Source: Crocosphaera watsonii WH 8501
GTDB taxonomy: Bacteria; Cyanobacteriota; Cyanobacteriia; Cyanobacteriales; Microcystaceae
Reading direction: 5' to 3'
DNA: 64,000 nucleotides
NCBI RefSeq assembly: GCF_000167195.1
Contig: NZ_AADV02000002.1
Span: forward strand, 586,269 to 650,268
The notes under the pieces: model-generated
What the model saw: the letters and a program-made list of their open reading frames with translations, nothing else
Databases searched by the model: none
Told to the model about the DNA's origin: nothing
Shown: positions 18,345 through 27,374 of the stretch, piece after piece
How the letters are laid out: every line of letters begins with the position of its first letter
How positions within the stretch are numbered: position 1 is the first letter of the stretch
Program-made: the position numbers and the translations under genes

Positions 18345-18419
18345 AACTGAAGGGGGTATCTCGAAGTTCTCATGAATCATTCCTGATTGCTATAGTTTTG
18401 ATTTGAGACATATTTTTTT

Positions 18420-20430
18420 AACCCAGATTCCGCACTTCAAAATGTAGTATAAAAAAATACATAGTTTTAAAAAGTCCGAAAATCATACCTGGGCAAGAAT
18501 ATTTCTCTTTTCATTAAATTTTTAGGAAAAATAATCAAATTAAGAAGATTTATACTCATTGAAAACTTAGCAAGACTCAGCACAAACGAAGGAGATTTTC
18601 CTCTTCTCATTTGATATCATTAGACTCTTATTCTTTTATTATTTTTGCTTTATCCAATTCAATTTATAGATAATATCTTTGACAAGATGCAGGTAATAAA
18701 CTCAATATAAAACGCCTTTCTTCTGTTAAATTGACAATTTGTTTAACTCCGTTTAAAATCACATAATGAATACCTTGAAAACATTGAAATATCCACCTCA
18801 AAGTCGGACGCAATGTTACTTTCCCTACTTGATTATTTATTCCTTTTTTGACTCTTTTTAAACAATTTCTTAATTCTCTTTGCCCCAAGTTATAAATCAA
18901 CAAACACAAAGACATTAAAAATAACATTGTTTCTATTCTTTCTGGTTTTTCAACGAAGAAACTATCAGTAAAAAATAAGGGATCTTTCAAAAATCGAAAT
19001 CCTCTTTCCGTAGATTGCTGGTTTTTATAAGTTATCAGAATTTCACTAGCTTCTAATTTATTTTCCTCTACTAAGTTAGTTGCTAAAATAAATTTTCCTG
19101 CTTCTTTAGTCTTTCTACTTATCTCTTCACCTTTTTTGATGATCAGACTAATCATTTTATAAATCTTTTCCTTTTTTTTCGAGTAAGTTTCAATCAGTTC
19201 AACTTCTTTTATTTCCAACAATCTCAATTTTTTATTAATAGCTTTTAATTTATATCGAGCAGCTTGAGGATGTTCAAATTCTTCAGATTGTATTTCTTTA
19301 AGAAATTTTTGGGATTTCTTCTCTTCTTGGGAAAGTTGTTTTTCTAGTTTTTCCAAATCACTTTTCTGTCTTTTTTCACTCAAGACTATTAACCAAGTTT
19401 GCTTGATTCCACCATAAGTAACAATTTCTTCTTTCCAGGTATAACTTTCTAAATTTAGGTCACTTCTTTTTTCTTTATCTTCATCTTTTACTTCTTCCAC
19501 CTCTATATTTTGCACTAATTCTTTTGCTTTTTTTATGGTCATTGGAACTCTCGTTATCCATTTTAAATGTTGGATTAGTTGGAGATTTTCTTGACCATAT
19601 AAAGCACTATCACAAACCATGATACTATCAAACTTTATTTGCTTTTTGAATTCTACTAAAACTTTTCCAAATACAGATTTATCAGATTCATTTCCATCTC
19701 CTACTCTCACAAATAATGGAATATCTCCATCTTGGCTTGTTATTAAATCCAAGACACATTGTTTTAAGTCTGGTCTATGATCCCGAGAATATCCTTTCTT
19801 AATAAAAATTGGTCTTTCTTTAATAATTTTTTCTTCTTCCTGTTTCTCTTTATCTTCTTCCCTTTTATATTCTCCATCTAAATGAAATGATGTGGAATCT
19901 AAATGGGATTATTTAAGGTCTATTTTTATTTTTTTAATTACTTCTAAAATTACTTCAATAAAAATATCATTTAGTCCATATTTATATAATTCATCCATTA
20001 CTCTCCCAATTTTATCATCATTAAGGTAATCAGGTTTAATTCTTTCTCCTAACAATTTCTCAATGGCTTTATCTTGAAAAAACTGACTGAATAAATATAG
20101 AGGTCTTGAAACAAATCCTAGTCCATTGATTAAAATAGACTTAACTACTGTACCTGCTGAGATTTTTTCTCTAACATCTATTCCTAATTTATTATTAATT
20201 ATTTTGACTATTCCTATTTCATCAATTAAACCAGCTACTATCCCTAAATGGTCTAAATTTTTAACTTGTATTTCTTCTAAATAAGACATTTTTCGCTCTT
20301 TTTTTACAGAGGAAACAACTTAAGCAATTATCCCACTTTTTTGTCTTCAAGAGCTTAAGCAATTATACTTAATTATTAACCCCAGGCTTGTAGTATTTAA
20401 TGCTACTTTTTGAAGTGCGGAATCTGGGTT
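18420..20430 (-). mobile_element. IS1634-like insertion sequence
   Basis: Perfect 23-bp terminal inverted repeats bound the element: AACCCAGATTCCGCACTTC with four more As at 18420-18442, and its reverse complement at 20408-20430. It is 2011 bp long and carries one transposase gene on the minus strand. It is inserted in the accessory gene of a second IS (right flank ATAATGCC corresponds to ATAATACC in the intact copy at 34.9 kb). The part of that IS expected to the left is absent, so no clean target duplication can be read. Confidence 0.85.
18664..20289 (-). pseudogene. IS1634-family DDE transposase with one in-frame stop
   Basis: A 541-codon frame is interrupted by a single TAA at 19909-19911. 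The N-terminal 126 codons match the DUF4277 domain that starts IS1634-type transposases. Immediately after the stop, the same frame continues SHLDSTSFHLDGEYKRE, which holds the first catalytic Asp (LDSTSF). It runs on through VCDSALYG (second Asp) to YKNQQSTERGFRFLK, a variant YREK signature with the Glu. No frameshift is needed: one nonsense change explains the break. Stop read-through or a sequencing error would make it active. Confidence 0.88.
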
Positions 20431-20616
20431 ATAATGCCAGTAGATTGTTCCCTTTCCGTTAACCTGATAACGAATAATATGACAATTAGCTGGTGCTACT
20501 TTCCCTTCCCGTTCAATTTTCTTTATTTTCTGTTTAAGAGAGCGAATTAGACTCTTAATTTGTTTGGCTCTCAGGTGGACATCTTGACTGGTCTTAAGTT
20601 CGGAATGTGATGACAT
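20431..20616 (-). pseudogene. Accessory gene of the two-gene IS, 3'-truncated
   Basis: The first 62 or so codons match the accessory protein of the intact copy (MSSHSELKTSQDVHLRAKQI...), then the gene runs into the inverted repeat of the IS1634-like element. The frame continues about 28 codons into that element before stopping, so a fusion product is possible but unlikely to work. Confidence 0.85.
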
Positions 20617-20650
20617 TAGCCTTAACTGTAACAAACAACCTTTTTTGATG

Positions 20651-20671
20651 TTAGCGTATATATTACGCTAA
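20651..20671. promoter_or_regulatory. Central palindrome TTAGCGTA-N5-TACGCTAA (copy 1)
   Basis: A perfect inverted repeat with eight-base arms and a TATAT centre lies between the divergent accessory and transposase genes. The same palindrome type lies at the IS ends. In the intact copy the corresponding central site (35149-35169) has one mismatch. It is a candidate operator for an IS-encoded protein. Confidence 0.6.
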
Positions 20672-20695
20672 TTTATAAGGTAATAAATTTTAAAA

Positions 20696-22134
20696 ATGAC
20701 CAAAAATGAAACGGCTACGTCTGTCGAGGAATTCCTGGTGTGGAGGTCTAACCTCTTCCAAGGACTAAAAGCTAGAAAAGAAACTATTATAGAATTACTC
20801 GATGCCCTCTCCAGTAACCAACAAGCTCACTCAGTCGTTGAATTGTCTCTCAATCCTTTATTTAGAAGAGATTATAACAGTTTATATAGAGGAATTCAAG
20901 AGTTTTACCCACTCAAACTGACCCTAATTATGAACAGAGAATTGAGACTTTATTTTCAGCGGTATCGAGAACAATTCCTCCCACTTCAAAACATTATAAC
21001 TTATTTGGTATTGACACAACTCCCTGTCCACGACCGTTTGCCGAAACGTTAGCGGATAAAACCTTTATTCATTACCCCAATCCAATTAAGGGAAATAAAC
21101 CCATTAATATTGGACATTGTTATTCCGTTGTCTGCGCTTTACCTGACCAAATAGACACAGAAAAAGTCCCTTGGGCTGTCCCCTTATCAGGAGAGCGAGT
21201 CCCCTCTAAACATAAAGGAGTAAATCAAGGCAATCAACAACTAAAAAAAATCTGGCAAAGTTCTTTATTTTCTGATAAATTATCTGTCTTAGTGGCTGAT
21301 AGTGACTACAGCCAAAAGGATTTTATCGGGGAACAAGTTAAGCATGAAGACGTAGTTACTATTACAAGAGTTAGAAGTGACCGAGTTTTTTATCGTCAAT
21401 TTATTCGGGACCCAAATCAAGCCAAAACTTCGGGACATCCCCGTTGGTATGGGGATAAATTTGACCTTAAAGATGACCAAACTTGGACTGAACCTGATGA
21501 AGTTCATCATGTTCCCTTTACAACGAAAAAAGGTCGTCAATTAACAGTGACTATTTCGGGATGGAAATAGATGTTAATGAGAGGAACTAAAAACTATAAA
21601 ATGAACAATCACCCCTTTACTTTACTCCAGATTGTTGTCAGAGATCAAGAAAGAAATAGTATTTGGAAACCTATGTGGCTTATTGTTATTGGTTCTCGGC
21701 GCGATGAGTTAAGTTTAGTTGATTGTTATCAGTGTTATCGACAACGTTATGACATGGAACATCTTTTTCGATTTGGTAAACAAAGATTATTGATGACATC
21801 TTATTTAACTCCCGATGTACATCATGAAGAAAATTGGTTTAAACTAACACTTCTTTCTTATGTAAATTTGTGGGCTGCCAGAAAATTAGCTGTGGTTTTA
21901 CCCCGTGATTGGGAACAGTATTTGAAGACTAATAAATCCATCAAAATCACCCCTAGTCTAGTTCAAAGAGACTTTTCAAGAATAATTACGACCTTGGGGA
22001 CTTTCGCCAAATTTCCCAAACGTCGAGGTTTTTCTTCCGGACGTATTAAAGGTTACAAAAAAGCCCCACGAACTCGTCATGATGTTATCAAGAAAGGGAG
22101 CAAAAAATCAACTGAAAACTTAAAAGCTCCTTAG
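20696..22134 (+). pseudogene. IS4-type transposase, inactivated by 1-bp deletion and a nonsense codon
   Basis: Compared with the intact transposase at 35194-36633, one T is missing from the T-run in CAAGAGTTTT (near 20905), which shifts the frame after about 69 codons. Further on, a CAG codon is TAG (21568-21570). Missense changes include Arg to Pro just after TTPCPR. Outside these sites the copies are nearly identical, so the decay is recent. Confidence 0.93.
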
Positions 22135-22357
22135 TTTTCCTCAGAATCTATAGATTAGCCCTATTTGTCAGCCAATTTTATTGACTGATACAGAGCCGAT
22201 ATTTTGGGATTTTAGTTTAGCGTAAAATATACGCTGACAAACTTTTTTTGTCCAAAGTCCAAGAATTTGAGAGCAAGGAATTAAAACCTTGTTCTACTTG
22301 TTATACTGAATTTCTGTCACTAAATAGGGGATTCCTATTGACTCAATTTTTCAATTT

Positions 22358-22372
22358 TGATAATCATTATCA
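22358..22372. promoter_or_regulatory. Perfect Zur/Fur-type box without a downstream gene
   Basis: TGATAAT-C-ATTATCA is a perfect 7-1-7 palindrome of the type described as the Zur box in Anabaena, and is close to a Fur box. It lies 97 bp from the right end of IS copy 1 and faces no gene start in either direction. The nearest gene, the FeoB-like transporter, has its 3' end toward it. Confidence 0.65.
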
Positions 22373-22625
22373 TAGTAAAAACAATTCCCTTTAGTCTAAA
22401 ATATTATTGATTTCTGAAACTAGCCATTTTTTCTCTTTTTGAGTCAATAATAATCCTAAATATAAACTTCTTTTCTATTTCCTAAAGTTGGGTGATTATA
22501 ATTAGACTTTAAAGTTATTTACGTTTTCTACTGGGTAAGTTGTCATCTGAACCTATTGACTGACTACGTAAACTAAAGGGGGGATCTTTAGGAGATCATG
22601 AATCATTACTGACTGCTATATATCC

Positions 22626-22653
22626 GTAGGGGTGAACGGCCGTTCACCCCTAC
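22626..22653. terminator. Perfect 28-bp palindrome after the FeoB-like gene
   Basis: GTAGGGGTGAACGG is followed directly by its exact reverse complement, 13 bp beyond the stop codon of the minus-strand FeoB-like gene. It could act as a transcription terminator or be a member of a dispersed REP-like family. There is no long T-run. Confidence 0.5.
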
Positions 22654-22666
22654 AAGATAAACATCT

Positions 22667-24316
22667 TTAACTAATTAATAATCCACCCCAAGCAAGAAAT
22701 AAAGAGAAAATAATCGCTGCGATCGCCTGTTTACCTAACAATAATAAGGCAAATCGAGAAGATTTTTCCTGCATAATGGTTAACAGAGTAACTAAACAAG
22801 GCAACAACACTCCTGCTAAATAAACCCCAGTCAAAACTTGTAATGGGGTCAACATAGCCAAGGTTTCTGGTTCCGCAAACAGCAATAATCCGTCTTTACG
22901 AATGGAAGCTAAAACAATAGGCAATGAAGCTTCAGGAGGTAGATTAAACCATCCCATTAAAGGATTGATAATATTAGCTAAAGTTGCAATCACTCCCAAC
23001 CAATTCAATAGAGAAGCAATAATCGTAATAATTACAAAAATGGGAATCGCATTGAACAAAAATTGCTGAATAGTTGACTTAGCTTCGCGCCAAATAACCG
23101 ACCAACGGGGAAATTCTAAAAATGCTCTTCCTTCAATTACCAGGGCATTTTGAGTCGACTTTGCTGTGGAAGAAGAAATGATGCGAGTATATATTAAAGT
23201 AGTTGCCGTTAGGTAAAGTAAGTAAGGAACTACTAAATAAGTTAAATTAGCAGCACTAAACACCCCTAAAGTTGCACCAAACTGATAGGAACAAGCCGAA
23301 CCAAAAGCGATCGCTGAAATACAAGTTCCTCTAGAACAACTAGAACAGCTACGAGTGTTAATTACCGCAGGAACATTACAGCCAAACCCCATAATTACCC
23401 TTACTAAATCTCTTCCCGATAACCCGAACTTACGCAGTAAAGGATCAAGAGTAATCGTAATCCGTTCGACCAAACCACTAGCTTTATATGCACCCAAAAA
23501 TAAAGCATAAAGAACTACTGTTGGCATTGCCCAAATAAACAGTAACGGCCCCATAGTTACCAGTCCATACTGCCCTATCAATATTTCTCTTAACCAGATC
23601 GGGAGTTGTGATAAAGGTTCAATAATTGAAGCGATCACCCCTTGCATTACCGGGTCTACTATAGTTGCAAAGGAGTTAGCCCCCCAAACAGCAATTATGG
23701 CAGGAATGAGTAATAAGGCGATCGCTACTAACCAGCCCAGGTTCCGATGTTCTAGCAGCGTCGGTTGGGGTTGAATGTGCCAACCGGCCCTTTGAGGAAT
23801 CCATTCTATGGGAAAAGTATGAGATTGTCGTAGAGCCTCTACAATAAAGTTTTGCTGTTGTGCTGTCAGGTAGCGAGCATCTACAGTTAAAATGCTAAGG
23901 TTAGAGGTTTTGCTCCACTCACGGACCACTTTTTGATTGTGGGTAGTCGAGAATAGCTTATCCCAAAAAGTAATCACCACAATACCCCGTTTATCTGCTA
24001 CCAAGGGTAATAAGTCTGCTAAATCTTGATCTACGTCAGTTGCCTTGACTACTAATAACACGGTGTCATTTTCTTGCAACTGTCTCAAAGCTTGCCTAGT
24101 TGTTACGGTGTCGGAACGATAAAGAATTCCAGGGGTATCAATAAAAGTATAGGCTTCAGATTGATAAGTTTCGCAAGCTATTGTAGAGCCACGAAAATTG
24201 TCACTATATGCAGATTTGCCCGTTAGAGAGGCAATTAGTTGGGACTTGCCTGTATTTTCTTTGCCAATGACAACAACACAATCCTGCTCTATTTTTGATG
24301 GCGTAAAAATATTCAT
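22667..24316 (-). CDS. FeoB-like metal transporter with G domain
   Basis: A 549-residue protein. The N-terminal G domain (about 1-165) has a P-loop GKENTGKS (18-25), GSTIA (43-47) and DTPG (60-63), but the usual NKxD reads TFWDK. The membrane part (about 192-549) has the FeoB gate signature GFGCNVPAV at 310-318 and a second nucleoside-recognition-like gate in the C-terminal half. It is shorter than standard FeoB. A cysteine cluster, CSSC at 324-327 with Cys332 and Cys342, directly follows the first gate. Fe2+ import is the family role. The neighbours (COG0523, metallothionein, Zur-type boxes) leave room for another divalent metal. No feoA nearby. Confidence 0.82.
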   Translation of the reverse strand: MNIFTPSKIEQDCVVVIGKENTGKSQLIASLTGKSAYSDNFRGSTIACETYQSEAYTFIDTPGILYRSDTVTTRQALRQLQENDTVLLVVKATDVDQDLADLLPLVADKRGIVVITFWDKLFSTTHNQKVVREWSKTSNLSILTVDARYLTAQQQNFIVEALRQSHTFPIEWIPQRAGWHIQPQPTLLEHRNLGWLVAIALLLIPAIIAVWGANSFATIVDPVMQGVIASIIEPLSQLPIWLREILIGQYGLVTMGPLLFIWAMPTVVLYALFLGAYKASGLVERITITLDPLLRKFGLSGRDLVRVIMGFGCNVPAVINTRSCSSCSRGTCISAIAFGSACSYQFGATLGVFSAANLTYLVVPYLLYLTATTLIYTRIISSSTAKSTQNALVIEGRAFLEFPRWSVIWREAKSTIQQFLFNAIPIFVIITIIASLLNWLGVIATLANIINPLMGWFNLPPEASLPIVLASIRKDGLLLFAEPETLAMLTPLQVLTGVYLAGVLLPCLVTLLTIMQEKSSRFALLLLGKQAIAAIIFSLFLAWGGLLIS

Positions 24317-24416: not shown

Positions 24417-25007
24417 ATGACACAGAAAATTTATCACACACTTGTTGGTCAATTCGCCTCACTCCCCTTTCGTAAAATTATTTGGATTGTGCCTGTGGCA
24501 TTTACTTTCCACGAGATGGAAGAGTGGAACATAATGCCCTGGCGGTTGGATCATTTCTCGAATGCGACTGTGATTTCAGATTTAGCATTGCGCACTTGGT
24601 TGGTGTTTATAACTTTGATCGGATTCCTGTGGACTGGAATTGCCTGTCTTCTGCCTACTGTTCGTGCAACTGGACTCATGGTTTTCCCCTTTTTCGTGAT
24701 GATTCCCTTTTCCGTGATGATTCCCTTTTCAAACTCTTTGCAGCACGTATATTGGCAATTCACCTTTGAAGGCTATGCACCGGCCTTTCTTTCCTGTGCA
24801 ATACTTAATATCCCATCAGTTTTACTGGTTTCCTGGCACGCTGGCCGCAACCGACTTGTCAATCCAATCTTCTTGGGAACATTGTTCGTCCTGGCAATAC
24901 TGTATCTGCTGGGTACAATCCTTGAAAGCCAGAAAGAACCAGCATTTTTTCATGAGATTCTAACTTTTAGTGCCTGGCTAGCAGATCACCTATTTGGAGT
25001 TACTTGA
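24417..25007 (+). CDS. HXXEE-domain membrane protein
   Basis: A 196-residue protein with about five hydrophobic segments and the family-defining motif FHEMEEW at about residues 31-37. The function of HXXEE proteins is unknown. A perfect 18-bp tandem duplication (24695-24730) gives an in-frame VMIPFSVMIPFS repeat inside a membrane segment. A strong AAGGAG lies three bases before the ATG. The base composition seems less AT-rich than its neighbours, which may indicate transfer. It lies between FeoB-like and flavoprotein genes of the metal island but need not share their role. Confidence 0.7.
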   Translation: MTQKIYHTLVGQFASLPFRKIIWIVPVAFTFHEMEEWNIMPWRLDHFSNATVISDLALRTWLVFITLIGFLWTGIACLLPTVRATGLMVFPFFVMIPFSVMIPFSNSLQHVYWQFTFEGYAPAFLSCAILNIPSVLLVSWHAGRNRLVNPIFLGTLFVLAILYLLGTILESQKEPAFFHEILTFSAWLADHLFGVT

Positions 25008-25046: not shown

Positions 25047-26168
25047 TCAACAAACACAATCGTTATCGCAGCAAGAAAGGTCATCTAAAAACAAACCTTC
25101 TTTACGATAAACTTCCAAGGGAGTAGTGTCGATGTCCAGACGTTGGGCGATCGCATTAACTACCACAGCAAATCGTTGCCGAAATTTGTAAATAAAGCAA
25201 AAAATCAACTCCCCGTGACGTACCGAAGGCCCTACGACAAATAATCCTGGAGTTACGGTAGACTCATCTTCTTGAGTCAATGAGGCATAGCCGTTTGACC
25301 AATCAAACATAGGAGCAATCTGTTTTAAACTGGTATCAAAACCTGTACAGAGAATCGGTGCTGTAGAAGTAAACCACTTTTCATACTCACTCTCTACCAC
25401 ATATCCATTTTTCACAGCCTTAACTTCTTCGATCTGCTTGTCGCCAATTAGTTCCACTCGACCCATAGAATAAGCTATTTCTAGACGCATTAAGCTATAG
25501 GGAGACAAGGAAATACTGGGGTCTGGATCTAAGTTTGACCAGCTACTGTTGCGGTCTAATAACTTGACTTTTTTCCCTAATGCTGCTAGGTTTGAGGCTG
25601 CATCTACACCGCTTTCATAGCCCCCGATAACCACAAATTCATCTCCATCAAGATCGGACCAAGAACGTACTTGAGAATTATGAATACATAAATCTGCACC
25701 TGGAAAGGGGTTTAAATGAGGATATTGGAATTCTCCTGCTGCCCAAATTAGAAACTGCGATCGAAACTCACCTCTATTGGTTTGAATAACAAACCCCTTA
25801 CATTGAGGTAAAGCTTCAATTTTTTCTACATTCGTCTCGGTTTTTATGGGAAGTTGAAAATACTCGACGACAGTCTCCAAATATAAGGCATAATCTTTCC
25901 CCGAAAGATGTTCCTTTCTAAACGTGAGGGCGGGAGAAGTGTTTAAAACTACTGAATTGAGATCAAGGAGTCCAAAACCATGACTGGGAAACGATGGCGT
26001 TATGAATCGCATTTCTTCTGGCCAACGACTAAAAGAAGCTCCCACTTCATGCCGTTCTAAAATAGCAAAGTTTTCAATTCCTAAATCTTTTAAGACTACC
26101 CCACAACCGATTCCAGCAGCCCCAGCGCCGACAATGATCACATCAAATTGGGGATTCTTGGTATTCAT
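25047..26168 (-). CDS. FAD/NAD(P)-dependent oxidoreductase with a Cys-rich tail
   Basis: A 373-residue flavoprotein of the thioredoxin-reductase/flavin-monooxygenase superfamily. Dinucleotide-binding motifs are VIIVGAGAAGIGCG near the N-terminus and VVIGGYESGVDAASNLA near the middle, with a late CTGFDTS and TPGLFVVGPSVRHGE. It ends in SCCDNDCVC, a small cluster of four cysteines that may bind metal or exchange disulfides. I chose ATG at 26168 rather than 26198, because the latter would leave only a few bases to the Zur/Fur-type box at 26203-26217 and GAGG sits well for the later start. The box probably represses it under metal sufficiency. Confidence 0.82.
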   Translation of the reverse strand: MNTKNPQFDVIIVGAGAAGIGCGVVLKDLGIENFAILERHEVGASFSRWPEEMRFITPSFPSHGFGLLDLNSVVLNTSPALTFRKEHLSGKDYALYLETVVEYFQLPIKTETNVEKIEALPQCKGFVIQTNRGEFRSQFLIWAAGEFQYPHLNPFPGADLCIHNSQVRSWSDLDGDEFVVIGGYESGVDAASNLAALGKKVKLLDRNSSWSNLDPDPSISLSPYSLMRLEIAYSMGRVELIGDKQIEEVKAVKNGYVVESEYEKWFTSTAPILCTGFDTSLKQIAPMFDWSNGYASLTQEDESTVTPGLFVVGPSVRHGELIFCFIYKFRQRFAVVVNAIAQRLDIDTTPLEVYRKEGLFLDDLSCCDNDCVC

Positions 26169-26202
26169 CAGCAGACAACCTCGAGATACTTTTTTCAAAG
26201 AA

Positions 26203-26217
26203 TGATAACCATTATCA
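26203..26217. promoter_or_regulatory. Zur/Fur-type box between the flavoprotein and COG0523 genes
   Basis: TGATAAC-C-ATTATCA, flanked by further symmetric AA/TT, is a 7-1-7 palindrome with one mismatch. It lies in the divergent control region 35 bp from the flavoprotein start and about 108 bp from the COG0523 start. In Anabaena this motif is the Zur box and COG0523 genes are Zur targets. Fur binding cannot be excluded from sequence. Confidence 0.7.
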
Positions 26218-26324
26218 TTTTAGCCTTTAATGAGTTAATATACAAACAGAATGTATATCAACCGATAGAATGAATCTACCTGTTGATTGCTTTCTTAATC
26301 CATAAGTTGACTACAGGAACAATT

Positions 26325-27374
26325 ATGCAAATAGTGGACAAAAAGTCAGGAAATAATGACACAATGAATGCAACCAAACAGGGCTTACCTGTAACAGTTA
26401 TTACCGGGTTTCTGGGAAGTGGAAAAACAACACTTCTTAACCATATTCTAACCAATCAAGAAGGAATAAAAACAGCAGTTTTAGTGAATGAGTTTGGAGA
26501 AATTGGCATTGATAATGAGTTAATTATTGGCACTGAAGATAATATAGTGGAACTCAACAATGGCTGCGTCTGTTGCACAATTAATGAAGATTTAGTCGAA
26601 GCGGTTCACAAAATTTTAGATCGTCCTGAGAAGGTAGATTATCTGATTGTTGAAACCACAGGTTTAGCAGATCCGCTCCCAGTTGCTTTAACGTTTTTGG
26701 GAACAGAATTAAGGGAGATGACTCGTCTAGATTCTATCGTTTCTATGGTAGATTGTGCTAATTTTAGCCTTGATTTATTCAACTCTGAAGCAGCATTGAG
26801 CCAGATTACTTATGGAGATATTATTGTTTTAAATAAGACTGATTTAGTAGATGAAGGTGAGGTTGATTCTTTAGAAAAGAGAATTAGAGATATTAGAGAG
26901 TCTGCTAGAATTTTGCGGACTAAGAAATCTCAAGTTTCCTTGCCTTTAATTCTGAGTGTGGGATTATTTGAATCTGATAAATATTTTGAGCATCAAGAAG
27001 TTGAAAATCACCATGATCACGACCACGATCATCATGATCATGACCACGATCATCACCATGATCACCATTCCCATCATTTAGAAAATGATGGTTTCACCTC
27101 TATTTCTTTTGAAAGCGATAAACCTTTTTCTATCCGAAAATTTCAATATTTTCTAGATAAACAACTCCCAAAAAATGTTTTTCGAGCTAAAGGTATTTTG
27201 TGGTTCGATGACACTGACAATCGCCACATTTTTCATCTCAGTGGTAAGCGGTTTAGTTTAGAAGAGGATCAATGGAAAGGGACTCCCAAAAATCAATTGG
27301 TTTTCATTGGACAAAATTTGGATGAGGATACACTATATCAACAGATCGAGCATTGTTTGTCCGTACAACCTTAA
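26325..27374 (+). CDS. COG0523 (CobW/ZNG1-like) GTP-dependent metallochaperone
   Basis: A 349-residue G3E-type GTPase. The P-loop GFLGSGKTT is at 28-36, the metal-binding CxCC motif (GCVCC) at 80-84, ETTGLADP at 111-118 and NKTD at 171-174. A histidine/aspartate-rich linker covers about 230-252, then the C-terminal CobW_C domain. Such proteins hand zinc to client enzymes under zinc limitation. I chose ATG at 26325, which has AGGA seven bases upstream, over a TTG at 26283. The Zur-type box upstream and the metallothionein downstream support a zinc role. Confidence 0.9.
   Translation: MQIVDKKSGNNDTMNATKQGLPVTVITGFLGSGKTTLLNHILTNQEGIKTAVLVNEFGEIGIDNELIIGTEDNIVELNNGCVCCTINEDLVEAVHKILDRPEKVDYLIVETTGLADPLPVALTFLGTELREMTRLDSIVSMVDCANFSLDLFNSEAALSQITYGDIIVLNKTDLVDEGEVDSLEKRIRDIRESARILRTKKSQVSLPLILSVGLFESDKYFEHQEVENHHDHDHDHHDHDHDHHHDHHSHHLENDGFTSISFESDKPFSIRKFQYFLDKQLPKNVFRAKGILWFDDTDNRHIFHLSGKRFSLEEDQWKGTPKNQLVFIGQNLDEDTLYQQIEHCLSVQP

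Follow-up and report, generated by a model that had tools for sequence, protein, structure and literature searches.

An orphaned Zur-type box beside an insertion sequence in Crocosphaera watsonii WH 8501, probable operator of a disrupted hisI2 gene

Among described zinc regulons, paralogues of HisI, CysRS and ThrRS, together with COG0523 proteins, have been placed under predicted Zur sites, COG0523 genes behind such sites have been reported in cyanobacteria too, and the HisI paralogues covered by the passages on this enzyme belong to Zur regulons of gamma- and beta-proteobacteria and keep their zinc ligands (Haas et al. 2009, PMC2770081). The Zur regulon of Anabaena PCC 7120 comprises znuABC, COG0523 genes and thrS2, with hemB2, thrS2 and folE2 named in the passages on its targets (PMC6103462, PMC10957091). 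Zur sites have a 7-1-7 form, given for cyanobacteria as a 15-bp motif (PMC6103462, PMC10957091), and overlap promoters, where zinc-loaded Zur usually acts as a repressor (PMC10957091).

The window, that is, the whole stretch of 64,000 nucleotides of Crocosphaera watsonii WH 8501 DNA that was analysed, carries at 22358-22372 (reverse strand) the sequence TGATAATCATTATCA, which reads TGATAAT-C-ATTATCA and forms a perfect 7-1-7 palindrome of 15 bp. The cyanobacterial Zur operator is of the type represented by the palindrome TGATAATnATTATCA. The letters reported by the first-pass annotation were confirmed, the box being the only match without mismatches in the window, out of four in the whole genome of 6.24 Mb (6,238,068 bases), and it is, as that annotation also held, a better palindrome than the box in front of the COG0523 gene, which was located by pattern search at 26203-26217 (TGATAACCATTATCA) and has one mismatch. 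With up to three mismatches, 26 matches were found in the window, as compared with a mean of 9.9 in shuffled sequences, and the genome as a whole holds 50 sites with one mismatch or none, as compared with 23 for the same pattern read backwards. Under Markov models of orders 1, 2 and 3, fitted to 133,906 bases of the same genome, the expected number of perfect sites is 0.13, 0.16 and 0.48, respectively, for the genome and no more than 0.005 for the window, expectations that are slightly raised by the choice of some training stretches for holding a box. The size of any regulon would be overestimated from plain counts of imperfect sites, since 12 of the 46 one-mismatch genome sites have the identical sequence TGATAGTAATTATCA or its complement. 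This sequence, present at twelve places in the genome (for example C61:697, C198:4631 and C256:11974), resembles a piece of a dispersed repeat more than an operator, and a site at C289:25049, set among broken transposase-like ORFs, is likewise unlikely to be one. Near the box, a palindromic repeat at 22626-22653 (GTAGGGGTGAACGGCCGTTCACCCCTAC) has copies scattered through many of the related genomes that were searched, and positions 22346-22462 have a 76% match on contig C10 of genome G002.

Leftward from the box lie a 21-bp leader (22337-22357, reverse strand, delimited by alignment with five intact gene copies), 74 bp of a decayed gene, hisI2 (22336-22263, reverse strand, codons 1-24), and then an insertion sequence (IS). 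A DNA search with window positions 22170-22670 in 29 genomes, the own genome included, returned homologous matches that start exactly at 22263, right behind the IS end, in four same-genus genomes, namely G008 (88%, to 22380), G002 (89%, to 22371), G007 (86%, to 22339) and G004 (86%, to 22334), only the first two of which reach the box; the other matches were copies of the IS end and of the dispersed palindromic repeat. In all four genomes a gene of about 161 codons, reading away from the box, begins with the matched stretch. The intact product is a histidine-synthesis enzyme, phosphoribosyl-AMP cyclohydrolase (NCBIfam NF000768, 154.1 bits against a cut-off of 126), and the gene was named hisI2 because the four relatives and the own genome each hold a second HisI-type match, 47-48% identical. 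The window copy has AGG at the start codon, a stop at codon 12, a 2-nt insertion that shifts the frame and a truncation by the IS; over 72 aligned coding positions it shows 8-9 differences from the five intact copies, as compared with 0-4 in the ten pairings of intact copies with each other. With homology and inactivating lesions both present, the stretch 22263-22336 is, judged by its sequence, a pseudogene of hisI2 (phosphoribosyl-AMP cyclohydrolase, HisI) that has lost constraint.

The partial insertion sequence, IS-A, occupies 20429-22262, with its right end at 22262, its left part cut at 20429 and its transposase ORFs at 20696-22134 on the forward strand. Its transposase gives a weak DDE_5 match below the cut-off, its stretch 20429-21624 matches contig C317 of the same genome at 98.7%, and its end has at least 21 other copies in the genome, 22 of 457 candidates having been scored. 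The cut side adjoins a second element, IS-B (18412-20428, reverse strand), which encodes a DDE_Tnp_1 transposase and matches a copy on contig C299 at 99.5% over 2,017 bases. To the left of IS-B, no remainder of IS-A was found except short inverted-repeat matches.

A second piece of hisI2, running from codon 23 to about codon 50, is located in the same genome at C317:25783-25887 and begins directly behind an IS-A end. The hexamer AAATTC, an apparent target-site duplication, is present at both junctions between IS-A and hisI2 (22263-22268, reverse strand, in the window and again on C317) and only once in intact hisI2, and the orientation of IS-A relative to hisI2 is the same at both. A single insertion of IS-A after codon 24 explains both pieces. 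That the two ended up on different contigs points to recombination between copies of IS-A, with the reservation that the assembly is a draft and may err at repeats. No reciprocal recombination product was found: when C317 15000-25800 was compared with DNA from around the M20 gene in four relatives, nothing matched. In G002 the M20 gene is followed by DNA part of which is located on contig C257 in the own genome, and the 8 kb examined there show no long stretch matching IS-A or IS-B.

These junctions also bear on the first-pass annotation, in which the palindrome, 97 bp from an IS end and with no gene starting nearby, probably marked the promoter of a metal-response gene removed during IS insertion, or else drove an unannotated RNA. 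The window ORFs indeed show no intact gene starting from the box, and the loss through an IS is borne out, the gene in question being hisI2, whose 5' end still stands between box and IS. Clean removal does not hold, since the gene is broken and split, with codons 1-24 here and codons 23-50 at C317:25783; the adjoining IS end is at 22262, which puts the distance at 95 bp in place of 97.

A comparison with relatives that lack the IS nest was proposed in the same annotation as a check, and the locus L149, from unicellular cyanobacterium SU2, allows it. This locus runs collinear with the window and carries the feoB-like gene, a perfect box, 21 bp and an intact hisI2. Window positions 25957-25014 match L149 1-944 at 92% and positions 25013-22672 match L149 1030-3459 at 87%, the opposite-strand HXXEE gene included, and positions 22372-22263 match L149 3965-4072, where the perfect box stands 21 bp before the intact hisI2. 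On this alignment, L149 is the intact orthologous locus. The genomes G008 and G002 have kept the COG0523, Pyr_redox_3 and FeoB-like genes but have no hisI2 after the last of these; other genes follow there, then metH, and their DNA beyond the feoB-like gene is unrelated to the window. Taken alone, these two genomes would have suggested that no gene had stood behind the box. The genes between feoB-like and metH differ in two relatives (L031:4724-7486 and L032:7212-10319), by eye a type I restriction-type gene in the first and a Uma2-like and a TIR-like gene in the second, a setting that resembles a defence-gene hot spot. On C317, metH follows the hisI2 piece in the same direction, which fits an ancestral order of feoB-like, hisI2 and metH.

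For the wider distribution of hisI2, five HisI2 proteins were scanned against genome contigs and the best 80 of 556 loci were kept, 43 of them cyanobacterial by record title. Among these best 80, a box with at most two mismatches lies within 200 bp upstream of hisI2 in 34 of the 43 cyanobacterial loci, which are not independent, some genomes giving two or three, and in none of the 37 others; the reversed-pattern control gave 0 of 43. The distance from box to start is commonly 21-33 bp and in some loci 150-185 bp. The nine cyanobacterial loci of this set of 80 from which such a box is absent include one in the same-genus genome G007 (L148, six mismatches).

In the window, the neighbourhood of the box comprises, from right to left, a COG0523/CobW-family GTPase gene (26283-27374, forward strand), the one-mismatch box at 26203-26217, a Pyr_redox_3 flavoprotein gene that heads the leftward cluster (25047-26198, reverse strand), the HXXEE-domain gene (24417-25007, forward strand; in the same place in L149) and the FeoB-like gene with GTPase and Gate domains, the upstream neighbour of hisI2 (22667-24316, reverse strand), all of these genes assigned by domain matches. 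Among the same best 80 of 556 loci, a FeoB-like C-terminal part is found upstream of hisI2 on the same strand, 68 to 3,410 bp off, in 15 of the 43 cyanobacterial loci, 39 of which offered at least 3.9 kb of upstream DNA, and a FeoB-like gene is near hisI2 in three of the 37 others (L187, L191 and L224). Both Pyr_redox_3 and FeoB-like genes precede hisI2 in ten of the 43 cyanobacterial loci of that set (L149, L152, L166, L167, L173, L174, L178, L183, L185 and L186). The FeoB-like protein of this cluster is a candidate for a zinc-related role, and the position of the Pyr_redox_3, FeoB-like and HisI2 cluster beside COG0523 suggests that the metal whose nutrition this FeoB-like permease serves is zinc and not iron.

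A further question concerns the regulator. In the own genome, boxes with no or one mismatch lie 30 bp before a znuA-like gene (C322:439236), 224 bp before a fur-family gene (C322:435757), 64 bp before a COG0523 gene (C317:41233; the box at window position 26203 being another of this kind), 121 bp before cysS (C317:36295), 100 bp before metH (C317:25935), before a PEP-CTERM gene (C317:37989) and, in two copies, before thrS (C323:218681 and C323:218709); the intact hisI2 at C317:33717-34199 lies 21 bp behind a one-mismatch box. The znuA-like product falls below the cut-offs of NCBIfam AztC and ZnuA, and its gene is followed, as judged by eye, by those of an ABC ATPase and a permease. Because the boxes precede znuA-like, fur-family, COG0523, thrS and intact hisI2 genes, Zur is likelier than Fur as the regulator, and the 7-1-7 form, the company of zinc genes and the conserved upstream place all match the prediction of a cyanobacterial Zur operator. 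On C317 (22000-41900, locus L097) a zinc-type island packs intact hisI2, cysS, folE, the PEP-CTERM gene and COG0523 into about 9 kb and carries four one-mismatch boxes. A boxed type of metH (L097:4051-7725, that is, C317:26050; L231; L232) is present in three of nine same-genus genomes, with boxes of 0, 1 and 2 mismatches; none of the nine other metH loci (70-73% identical) has a box with up to two mismatches in flanks of up to about 1.5 kb, and the own genome shows the boxed type only.

At the protein level, HisI2 departs from zinc-dependent HisI at its metal site. In zinc-dependent HisI, the zinc ligands are the cysteines of a C-x15-C-x6-C pattern. The nearest solved structure to HisI2, 1zps, and the second HisI of the own genome both read DCD at the first ligand position; in HisI2 (L092:4846-5328 and the other intact copies) this first cysteine is replaced by aspartate (IDDDQDC) and the other two are kept, so that the intact hisI2 products do not have all three ligand cysteines of zinc-dependent HisI. 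A cysteine four residues after the substituted position makes a shifted zinc ligand possible.

The palindrome is best explained, with a probability of roughly 0.9, as the orphaned operator of a dead hisI2 gene, once under Zur-type control and then lost through insertion of IS-A and decay. The ancestor would have had a leftward cluster closing with hisI2, after Pyr_redox_3 and feoB-like, and the box would have lain 21 bp ahead of the hisI2 start codon. Going by established Zur biology, zinc-loaded Zur would bind the box near the promoter and shut hisI2, and zinc shortage would release it. IS-A would then have inserted after codon 24, duplicating 6 bp, whereupon hisI2 would have decayed, its two pieces having come to lie on different contigs most simply by recombination between IS-A copies. 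The loss of this copy was probably tolerable, because an intact hisI2 is present elsewhere in the genome.

The reading closest to this one keeps the fossil and makes Fur, and hence iron, its regulator, which is unlikely. The E. coli Fur box has the same half-sites, a FeoB-like gene is the neighbour of the box, and the fur-family protein near the znuA-like gene, one of four FUR-family proteins encoded in the genome, scores best on the NCBI Fur and PerR models, above the Zur model, with all scores below cut-off. The genes behind the boxes, however, namely znuA-like, COG0523, thrS, cysS and hisI2, are of the kinds found in described Zur regulons, and inspection of about a dozen of the 50 sites showed none with an iron gene behind it. 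Less probable again is a box that is still live, driving either a small RNA or a metal-responsive transcript that runs leftward across the hisI2 remnant and enters IS-A in antisense to its transposase. Such activity would be in keeping with the intact box, with transposase ORFs that run the opposite way and with a promoter-like pair, TAGACT-18-TATGAT (22369-22398, reverse strand), whose -10-like second hexamer overlaps the box, but this pair is a consensus match only (9 of 12) and no better than chance, with 501 bases holding four such sites where 2.3 would be expected. Nor is an intact box surprising: given a remnant diverged by 11-13%, a box of 15 bp would have stayed untouched with a chance of about 0.13-0.17. 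The specific form in which zinc starvation would induce a transcript antisense into the IS-A transposase is, by a small step, more improbable still; if true, a captured Zur switch would tie the transposon to the zinc status of the cell.

Two further readings deserve hardly any credence. An operator serving the FeoB-like gene, the nearest intact gene, or any gene to the right of the box is rejected on orientation, the FeoB-like gene having its 3' end towards the box, and on the leftward flank, where hisI2 begins at the customary spacing. A chance palindrome in AT-rich DNA would have a precedent in one of the four perfect genome sites, C299:7634, which sits within the coding sequence of a dynamin-like protein and may have arisen by chance, but the Markov expectation for the window tells against it, and it is contradicted by the orthologous loci, the flank of the box being homologous to hisI2 promoters with the same box.

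As the orphaned operator of hisI2, the box itself is ordinary, a fossil of a known type of switch, and it illustrates how a member lost from a regulon can leave its operator behind as a trace, here one whose gene can be named. Of greater weight are the by-products of the analysis: in many cyanobacteria Zur-type boxes precede a hisI2 paralogue whose zinc site is altered, and the cluster of Pyr_redox_3, FeoB-like and HisI2 beside COG0523 hints at a part for the FeoB-like permease in zinc nutrition. A search of openly accessible literature turned up no description of a cyanobacterial hisI2 cluster, although one may be in print elsewhere; the words hisI, cyclohydrolase and FeoB are missing from the main texts of the cyanobacterial Zur and FUR papers searched for them.

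Compared with the relevant passages of Haas et al. (2009, PMC2770081), the present locus and genome share HisI, CysRS, ThrRS and COG0523 with Zur-type sites, but the setting is cyanobacterial, the first ligand cysteine of HisI2 has become aspartate and the window copy is dead. With the Zur regulon of Anabaena PCC 7120, the likeness comprises znu, COG0523 and thrS genes and 15-bp palindromic sites that overlap promoters, whereas hisI, cysS, metH and a FeoB-like gene are not named in the passages describing that regulon; the likeness of the sites is one of form. Pseudogenes made by IS elements in cyanobacteria (for example PMC4369082) reportedly arise when a gene is broken by an IS and then decays. 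The fate of hisI2 follows the same course of breakage and decay, with the difference that here the regulatory site stays intact beside the broken gene.
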